A stretch of 42,443 nt of DNA from Prevotella sp. (GTDB lineage Bacteria; Bacteroidota; Bacteroidia; Bacteroidales; Bacteroidaceae): the NCBI GenBank assembly GCA_022774105.1, contig JALFNY010000117.1, forward strand, positions 1-42,443. Direction: 5' to 3'. The notes beneath the pieces are model-generated. The model was not told the origin of the DNA. It worked only from the letters and a program-made list of their open reading frames with translations, and made no database searches. Below, one piece after another: positions 25,529 through 42,127 of this stretch. The first letter of the stretch is position 1; each line of letters begins with the position of its first letter. Both the position numbers and the translations under genes were made by a program.

Positions 25529-25660
25529 TCTTAACTTTAATAATTTTATTACTACTAAAAAACATTGTTTTCGGGGCGGATTCACTAACCACCGGCGTGG
25601 CCAAACGCACGGCTATTAACACCGTCACCCGTAGGGCTCTAAGTGCGCCCTGAATAATCG
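25529..25660 (-). promoter_or_regulatory. Structured 5' leader of rplM (candidate L13 leader)
   Basis: About 130 nt between the putative promoter and the rplM start. On the RNA strand AGGGC..GCCCU (plus 25633-25651) forms one hairpin. ACGG..CCGU and GGCCAC..GUGGUU can form two more, followed by an A/U-rich single-stranded stretch before the AUG. Ribosomal leader candidates preceding L13 have been proposed in Bacteroidia, where L13 would repress its own operon. Assignment to that class is inferred from position and folding by eye only. Confidence 0.55.
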
Positions 25661-39882: not shown

Positions 39883-40833
39883 ATGTCCTCCCTCGTAATA
39901 AAAAATACGGGTTACTGGTACACGGTGCTGACAGACGAAGGTACTACGGTCCAATGTAAGGTAAAAGGCAACTTTCGCCTCAAAGGAATCCGTAGCACTA
40001 ATCCCATTGCTGTTGGTGACAGAGTAGAGATACAGCAAGCCGATGATACCACAGCATATATCACGGAGATAAAAGACAGGCGCAACTATGTCATACGCAA
40101 GTCCTCAAACCTCTCAAAGCAAAGCCATATCATAGCAGCCAATGTAGATCAGGCAATGCTCATTGTTACCATCAACCACCCCGTCACAAGCACCACATTC
40201 ATTGACCGTTTTCTCGCCTCTGCGGAAGCATACAGAATACCTGTCGTGATAGTGTTCAACAAAACGGACCTGCTATGCGAGGAAGAACAACATTATCTTG
40301 ACATGATGCGTACACTCTATGACACCGTAGGTTACAAGAGTCTCGCTATCTCCGCCACCACAGGCAGTGGTATAGAAGCGCTACGCACTATGCTTGACGG
40401 TAAAATAACCCTCTTCAGTGGCAATAGCGGAGTGGGCAAGTCAACCATCATCAATGCCCTCATACCAGGAGCAAACCTGCGTACAGCAGAGATAAGCGAT
40501 GCCCATAATCAAGGGACGCATACCACCACATTCAGCGAGATGCTACCCATTCCCCTCACGTCACCAGAAGAAAAGCAAGGCTGGATAATAGATACCCCCG
40601 GCATACGTGGCTTCGGAACGTTCAACATAGAGCCAGAAGAACTGACAAGTTACTTCAAGGAAATATTCCGTTTCTCAAAAGATTGCCGTTTCTCTGACTG
40701 TACACACACACACGAACCAGGCTGTGCAGTGCTGAAAGCCGTGGAAGACCACTACATCTCCGCCTCACGATACCAGAGTTATCTTTCCATGCTTGAAGAC
40801 AAGGAAGAAGGGAAATATAGGACAGGGCATTAA
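39883..40833 (+). CDS. rsgA: Ribosome small subunit-dependent GTPase RsgA
   Basis: A 316-residue circularly permuted GTPase (YjeQ) that checks late 30S assembly. An N-terminal OB fold (residues 1-75: [40 protein letters not shown]) is followed by the GTPase motifs in permuted order: G4 VFNKTDLL, G5 ISATTG, G1 [17 protein letters not shown], the G2 region [19 protein letters not shown] and G3 [11 protein letters not shown]. The zinc knuckle is [16 protein letters not shown] (Cys-Cys-His-Cys). Start [10 protein letters not shown] is at the edge of a family B repeat, so an upstream start is not available. Confidence 0.96.
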
Positions 40834-40841
40834 GCGCGAGG

Positions 40842-40890
40842 TAGGGATTCCCCCACAAGAGATAGGAATATCCTACTGACTGGTAGGGAA
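40842..40890 (+). promoter_or_regulatory. Three TAGG motifs at exact 21-bp spacing
   Basis: TAGGGATTCCC (40842), TAGGAATATCC (40863) and TAGGGAAAAAT (40884) start exactly 21 bp apart, two helical turns. The last sits just upstream of the -33 element of the small secreted protein gene. The first two have partial dyad symmetry (GGGATTCCC, TAGGAatATCCTA-like). It has the layout of an activator binding array; the regulator is unknown. Confidence 0.55.
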
Positions 40891-40897
40891 AAATAAT

Positions 40898-40927
40898 CTT
40901 GTTAGCAGTTTATTAGTAGTACCTTTG
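40898..40927 (+). promoter_or_regulatory. Promoter of the small secreted protein gene
   Basis: TACCTTTG (40920-40927) is a full -7 match. CTTG at 40898-40901, 18 bp upstream, is a weak -33 box, consistent with a need for an activator. Confidence 0.72.
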
Positions 40928-40992
40928 CACCAGAAATCAGAGACAAAAGGTCTCAGATGCAAAAGAAAACAAATAAAATAGGAGACAAGATT

Positions 40993-41247
40993 ATGAAAAA
41001 GTATGTATTCAGTTTAATGACACTCGTTACACTTGGCACTGGCACTATGTTCGGAGAAACGACAAAGGAGGTACAGTCAGTCACAACACAGAGTCAGGAG
41101 GTGGAGCAAAGTACAGGTAACCACATTCAGTCCACGGAACAAGAGTGTGAAGAGAAGGTAAGACACAGCCGTAGCAACAAACGCGGCGAGGGTATGACAA
41201 TAAAGAAGAAAGAAGTGACATACAGCGTGCAGACATTGCATATGTAA
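40993..41247 (+). CDS. Small exported protein of unknown function
   Basis: An 84-residue protein from the Met at 40993 (MKKYVFSLMTLVTLGTGTMFGE), a Sec signal peptide. The ORF track's earlier Met (40957) only adds charged residues in front of it. The mature part is about 62 residues. The first half is rich in Thr, Gln, Glu and Ser (TTKEVQSVTTQSQEVEQSTGNHIQSTEQECEEK) with one Cys; the second half is basic (RHSRSNKRGEGMTIKKKEVTYSVQTLHM). I recognise no domain. It is its own unit, with a strong promoter, an unusual upstream array and a terminator, which supports it being a real expressed gene. Confidence 0.65.
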   Translation: MKKYVFSLMTLVTLGTGTMFGETTKEVQSVTTQSQEVEQSTGNHIQSTEQECEEKVRHSRSNKRGEGMTIKKKEVTYSVQTLHM

Positions 41248-41267: not shown

Positions 41268-41310
41268 AAACAGTATAATGTAGGTTTTTAACCCTCGTTA
41301 TACTGTTTTT
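41268..41310 (+). terminator. Terminator of the small secreted protein gene
   Basis: AAACAGTATAA (41268-41278) pairs with TTATACTGTTT (41298-41308), with an inner GGTT/AACC pair and a following T run. The rest of the gap to ruvA is A/T-rich; a weak promoter candidate is TTTG (41425) with TATGTGTG (41447). Confidence 0.75.
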
Positions 41311-41506
41311 CCATTTTGTGAGATTGCAGTAAAAAGTGAAAATGGCAGAAGACTAAAGACCGATTTGGGATAAATTATGGCATAACGGAACTCTCCACCA
41401 CCTTTCCATAATTGTTAAAAAGGGTTTGAAGGTGCAATATATTTATTATGTGTGCGTTATTATAATACGTGTTTTTCGTAGATAAAAAAGAGAAGTAAGT
41501 AAGGCG

Positions 41507-42127
41507 ATGATAGAATATATAAAAGGAGAACTGACGGAACTGACACCAGCGCAGGCGGTGGTAGAGGCGCACGGTGTAGGGTACTTGCTTAACATATCCC
41601 TTAATACATATACCGCTATTCAGGATAAGCATGACGTGAAACTGTATGTGCATGAGGCTATCGTGACAGGTGGCCGAGATGACTCGTACACCCTATACGG
41701 TTTTTATACCAAGCAAGAGCGGGAGATATACCGTATGCTGATAACTGTCAGTGGAGTGGGCAGCAATACTGCACGCATGATTCTCAGTGCTATATCGCCT
41801 ACAGACCTTGTAAACGTCATTGCCTCTGGCAACGAGAAGGCACTGAAGGGCGTAAAGGGTATCGGTCTGAAGACGGCACAAAGGATAATTGTTGACCTAC
41901 GTGACAAGATGACGGCCAGCGGTATCATTGCCGACATTACCGCGCCTTCTGCTCATGTTGCGCCAGCGAGTGTGAATACGGAGGTGCATGAGGAGGCAGT
42001 AGGTGCATTGACGATGCTTGGTTTCTCACCTGCACCAAGTGCCAAGGTTGTGACGGAGATATTGCAGGGTACGCCTGATATGCCCGTGGAACAGGTTATT
42101 AAGTTGGCGTTGAAGATGATAAAATAG
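41507..42127 (+). CDS. ruvA: Holliday junction branch migration protein RuvA
   Basis: A 206-residue subunit that clamps Holliday junctions as a tetramer and loads the RuvB motor. The N-terminal OB fold ([52 protein letters not shown]) is followed by two helix-hairpin-helix motifs ([40 protein letters not shown]). The C-terminal domain III ([26 protein letters not shown]...[12 protein letters not shown]) binds RuvB. ruvB and ruvC are not adjacent. The sprA-like gene follows 11 bp later, a neighbourhood conserved in many Bacteroidota. Confidence 0.96.

Follow-up and report, generated by a model that had tools for sequence, protein, structure and literature searches.

Tandem operators that carry dimers up to a poor promoter box have been described in Bordetella, where BvgA binds Pfha and Pptx as head-to-head dimers. 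The dimer centres are spaced by 22 bp along a single DNA face, and the last dimer abuts the -35 region. A poor -35 box is needed for this regulation, each BvgA dimer occupies a 14-bp pair of inverted heptads, and the strongest site at Pfha lies upstream and reads TAAGAAATTTCCTA (PMC7250471). A 14-bp dyad is also used by the Rcs system of enterobacteria, which is an envelope-stress system (PMC9942566) and whose RcsAB box is TaAGaatatTCcta (PMC4325325). LytTR regulators, as at the LRS of Streptococcus mutans and the LRS-like operons of Bacteroides, use direct repeats of 9-11 bp set 11-12 bp apart, so that the repeats recur every 21-22 bp immediately before the promoter (PMC6193735).

In this study, the window was the whole of a 42,443-nucleotide stretch of Prevotella sp. 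DNA (assembly GCA_022774105.1, contig JALFNY010000117.1, positions 1-42,443, forward strand), in which three phased motifs precede a gene for a small exported protein. Their layout resembled the BvgA promoters in its tandem 14-bp dyads, in having the strongest site upstream and in a last site abutting a poor upstream box, and TAAGAAATTTCCTA is close to the Prevotella consensus TAGGGAATTTCCTA. The Prevotella arrays differ from BvgA promoters in using a Bacteroidota -33/-7 promoter and in preceding envelope genes, whereas BvgA serves virulence genes. The RcsB/RcsAB box is a 14-bp dyad of the same type as the Prevotella site, but the regular tandem layout seen in Prevotella sets the two apart, as Rcs boxes are not known to be arranged in this way. 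LytTR operators share the phase and the position upstream of the promoter; their units are not dyads, whereas those of the Prevotella arrays are.

The three-site array and its promoter

The TAGG motifs TAGGGATTCCC, TAGGAATATCC and TAGGGAAAAAT start at 40842, 40863 and 40884, and the phase of exactly 21 bp reported by the first-pass annotation was borne out. The window holds one such triplet, and an order-1 Markov model of its sequence produced no equally phased triplet in 300 runs. Single sites resembling site 2 also arise by chance, and the significance therefore rests on the array and not on single sites. Site 1 (40842-40855, + strand) is a 14-bp dyad-type site, TAGGGATTCCCCCA, with the highest matrix score in the window (17.8). 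The sequence, a comparison with an orthologous locus and the matrix further indicated that site 2 (40863-40875, +), TAGGAATATCCTA, is a 13-bp variant with perfect TAGGA/TCCTA arms, and that site 3 (40884-40897, +), TAGGGAAAAATAAT, has retained its left half and lost its right half. The end of site 3 directly abuts CTTG (40898-40901, +), as had been proposed; we take CTTG to be a weak -33-like box under the Bacteroidota promoter rule, and 18 bp separate it from the -7 element TACCTTTG (40920-40927, +). The distance from the third TAGG to the -7 element is 36 bp, the commonest distance among the 101 arrays listed in the genus-wide survey below.

The array was maintained in a Prevotella relative (G392, locus L087), where it reads TAGGGGATTTCCCC-7-TAGGGTAATCCTA-8-TAGGGAAAATAAG. 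All three TAGG motifs are retained at 21 bp and in the same register, the middle site also has the 13-bp form, the last site likewise lacks a right half, and 32 bases separate the last TAGG from TACCTTTG in both genomes. A lack of conservation in orthologous promoters had been named in advance as an observation that would refute the reading; the motifs were conserved. The gene behind the G392 array also encodes 84 residues, of which 33/84 are identical to the window protein in a gapless alignment, with 37/32/49 changes at the three codon positions. Preservation of the array beside a protein of such low identity indicated that the binding letters have been held while the spacers and the protein drifted.

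The gene itself (40993-41247, +) starts at ATG 40993 and encodes 84 residues with a signal-like N-terminal segment, export being judged from the N-terminal sequence alone. A longer in-frame start at ATG 40957 is unlikely, as the aligned G392 region carries a TAA and leaves no open extension of the gene. No match to Pfam, NCBIfam or PDB reached the cut-off, in keeping with the earlier description of a protein of no known family, and a protein search of 199 related genomes and viral contigs found no relative at the cut-off; the G392 ortholog was located only through its promoter DNA and not by protein search. The predicted 5' leader contains a hairpin, AUC.GAGAC-AAAAG-GUCUC.GAU (40936-40958, +; fold z -2.33), whose counterpart in G392 (fold z -4.35) keeps its pairing with changed bases. 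Downstream, an inverted repeat, ACAGTATAA...TTATACTGT, that leads into a T run (41270-41311, +) was read from the sequence as resembling a terminator. The gene lies between rsgA (39883-40833, +; Pfam RsgA_GTPase, 2.1e-53) and ruvA (41507-42127, +; Pfam RuvA_N, 5.3e-19). At the rsgA locus, the closest relative (L003) carries a different gene in this place, and another (L004) has rsgA and ruvA without the small gene.

Two further observations concern transcript leaders. A start-of-transcript element, TTTGCA(C)CAGAAATCAGAGAC, follows the -7 box of many Prevotella genes and often opens a small hairpin; it was seen in the window at 40920-40958 and at L083, L088, L331 and L089-L102, several of these genes being without TAGG arrays. 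The sole Rfam match in the window was an L13-Bacteroidia ribosomal leader at 25579-25651 (-).

Distribution of the arrays in Prevotella

Computation established the motif, its phase, its fixed distance from the promoter, its conservation and the kind of genes behind it. The pattern TAGG-N17/18-TAGG-N28-36-TAnnTTTG was found in 391 of 398 Prevotella genomes, typically in 2-8 copies each, and a backwards-pattern control mostly gave 0; these counts derive from exact patterns, which miss weaker sites, and most of the genomes surveyed are MAGs. Among the 101 arrays listed, the sites were 22 bp apart in 63 and 21 bp apart in 38, and the second TAGG lay 36 bp (81 arrays) or 37 bp (19 arrays) from the -7 box. 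Letters outside the search pattern were conserved as well in these arrays, with G at position 5 (88%), A at position 6 (79%) and CC at positions 11-12 (93-96%). The consensus of 120 arrays, TAGGGAATTTCCTA, is a 14-bp dyad symmetric at 12/14 positions, and would therefore be expected to serve a homodimer.

As a check that the phase did not stem from the search pattern itself, 40 genomes, including named members of Prevotella, Palleniella, Xylanibacter, Hoylesella and Hallella, were searched with a gap free to take 31 values, which permitted match lengths of 56-87 bases. This free-spacing search returned 155 matches versus 4 in the control, and all the matches listed spanned 64-67 bases, corresponding to a spacing of about 20-22 bp, or 86 bases, corresponding to three-site arrays. 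It yielded no arrays in three Bacteroides/Mediterranea genomes. B. fragilis Q1F2 has one array, before a lipoprotein resembling those that arrays precede in G487 and G636. The strict pattern was nearly absent outside the family, as 295 Bacteroidales genomes gave only family members (G338, G487, G636 and the window's own genome, G000) and three single matches elsewhere, which are possibly due to chance. Single pairs, TAGGGTTTTACCTAC..TAGGGTTTTAGG, were noted in two genomes of another Bacteroidales family (G505 and G659; L156, L157), where the gene behind them encodes an exported protein that is carboxypeptidase-like or receptor-like; they may be chance occurrences or distant relatives of the arrays.

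The first-pass annotation had proposed a search of the genome for the same triplet. The exact triplet occurs once in the 2.2-Mb genome, versus none in a reversed control, and is thus unique; other arrays stand before three genes, encoding a 111-aa small exported protein (contig C3) and proteins of the TDKMAYEL (C154) and DDMYFTPKK (C171) kinds. Three-site arrays precede further small exported proteins in G201 (L083/L334, L322) and G111 (L088).

Genes behind the arrays

Nearly all genes following the approximately 120 arrays encode proteins with an export signal or lipobox, as judged by eye; exceptions include PNPase, a transposase and spurious matches. Pfam assigned OmpH (Skp), BamE together with DUF4476, OmpA combined with Gly-zipper, OMP_b-brl_2 and META, and glycine-zipper lipoproteins, beta-barrels and small secreted proteins are also present. 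The two large "TDKMAYELNLTDDQYEAAYEINLDYL" and "DDLYFTPKK" families gave no Pfam match. As OmpH/Skp and BamE have envelope-assembly functions, this gene set supported an envelope reading of the regulon, and the presence of OmpA, OmpH/Skp, the BamE-domain protein, glycine-zipper lipoproteins and beta-barrels points to envelope adjustment under stress as its likely role. No regulator was present among the approximately 120 array genes examined.

Small exported proteins, many of them rich in His, Lys and Cys, make up a last, loosely defined class, to which the 84-aa protein of the window belongs. The first-pass annotation had suggested a surface or signalling factor, a description that found no support: the protein evolves fast and belongs to a broader group of exported proteins under array control, and nothing points to signalling. 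The His/Lys/Cys-rich class was observed at L087, L083, L322, L155, L319, L238, L327, L330 and L331, with several members in G111 and little conservation beyond the signal-like segment.

Proposed mechanism and rival explanations

The reading that we favor, with moderate confidence, is that the three motifs serve as tandem operators in an envelope regulon of Prevotella under a dimeric activator of LuxR/NarL type. The dimer, whose helix-turn-helix is most likely of that type, would bind each 14-bp dyad head to head, and neighboring dimers would sit two helical turns (21-22 bp) apart on one DNA face. The strongest site lies upstream, and the weakest abuts the poor -33 box, where it would place RNA polymerase at the TAnnTTTG promoter; the controlled gene encodes a small exported protein. 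From the layout and the genes we infer activation by the array, a LuxR/NarL-type binder and an envelope-stress signal. The strong analogy with BvgA suggests that the arrays would work like its tandem-dimer promoters: on the Prevotella matrix, the BvgA Pfha site scored 9.7 (random p 4e-5). A score of 9.2 (random p 5.5e-5) was obtained for the RcsAB box TAAGAATATTCCTA, which is a resemblance only. The activator-array layout proposed earlier was reinforced by the register kept in the ortholog, the recurrence across the genus and the near-fixed spacing and distance to the -7 box, from which activation itself is presumed. The lost right half of site 3, the absence of arrays at LuxR loci and of regulators among the approximately 120 array genes examined, and the distribution of LuxR groups A and C described below count against the envelope-regulon explanation.

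Repression would be compatible with the position alone, as the last site touches the -33 box and a repressor there could keep array genes low; however, a fixed distance upstream of the -7 box combined with a weak -33 box is the usual layout of activators, and we regard repression as unlikely. Short inverted repeats within the sites could also suggest an RNA feature, such as an rsgA terminator or a leader hairpin. This reading was largely refuted and is extremely improbable, since the array folded no better than shuffled sequences (z -0.33), lies upstream of the promoter and keeps its phase across unrelated genes. On spacing, the most serious known rival is a LytTR-type regulator binding TAGGGAAA-type direct repeats two turns apart, as the same phase just upstream of promoters occurs in Bacteroides too (PMC6193735) and LytTR proteins were present in all five Prevotella genomes tested. 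However, every unit of the arrays forms a dyad on its own, the right half of which includes a conserved CC, and no LytTR orthologue was common to all five array-bearing genomes. The sole LytTR protein of G016, which has five arrays, shares only 31-38% identity with the response-regulator LytTRs found in the other genomes, whereas the figure for the G283 and G273 orthologues is 66%. A LytTR binder was thus disfavored and is quite improbable. Sites 21-22 bp apart are also used by AraC-type and other regulators, and our search for regulators covered the LuxR and LytTR families; a different dimeric or two-headed protein with the same phase (AraC type, OmpR type or of an unknown family) is therefore possible, if doubtful, with the symmetric 14-bp unit and the match to BvgA and RcsAB sites fitting LuxR/NarL-type binders better.

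Candidate regulators

That the arrays are bound by a LuxR/NarL-type protein is, in our estimate, about an even call, and groups A and C are the remaining LuxR-type candidates, both being present in six of six Prevotella genomes tested. Group A is a fusion of hemerythrin and LuxR (the copy in the window's genome is on contig C188), and group C comprises small LuxR proteins whose receiver-like region is not recognized by Pfam as Response_reg. Of the LuxR groups, A alone occurred in all the array-bearing genomes that were checked, and it is also present in array-free genomes. In the Bacteroidales profile, group C was lacking in G636, a genome with three arrays, and occurred in many families without arrays, making its phylogenetic profile undiagnostic as a pointer to the regulator. 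Group B was set aside, as it was not among the matches of the array-bearing G283. Autoregulation also offered no route to the regulator, as no array lay near any LuxR or LytTR gene tested.

The hemerythrin-LuxR fusion was observed in six Prevotella genomes (L166, L167, L168, L169, L171 and L175), and in Bacteroides its two halves are separate adjoining genes. A second group C paralogue lies at a contig end in the window's genome (G000:C182:16273-16923), and G273 also has two group C proteins.

A more specific and unlikely proposal is that the arrays are read by group A, which, as a one-component sensor, would respond to oxygen, nitric oxide or iron state and directly control outer-membrane make-up through tandem operators. 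If this is true, the envelope response of Prevotella would differ from those of sigma-E, Cpx and Rcs.

Significance

Searches of the open-access literature on Prevotella LytTR proteins, TAGGG motifs, envelope stress, start-site maps and LuxR/hemerythrin regulators returned no description of such arrays or of such an envelope regulon in Prevotella, and the arrays probably mark a previously unreported system of cell-envelope control. Prevotella is a dominant genus of the rumen, gut and mouth. If our reading is true, a simple sequence rule would list the envelope regulon in nearly every Prevotella species, a common role could be assigned to several large unnamed families of exported proteins, and the array would provide a ready bait for finding the master regulator.
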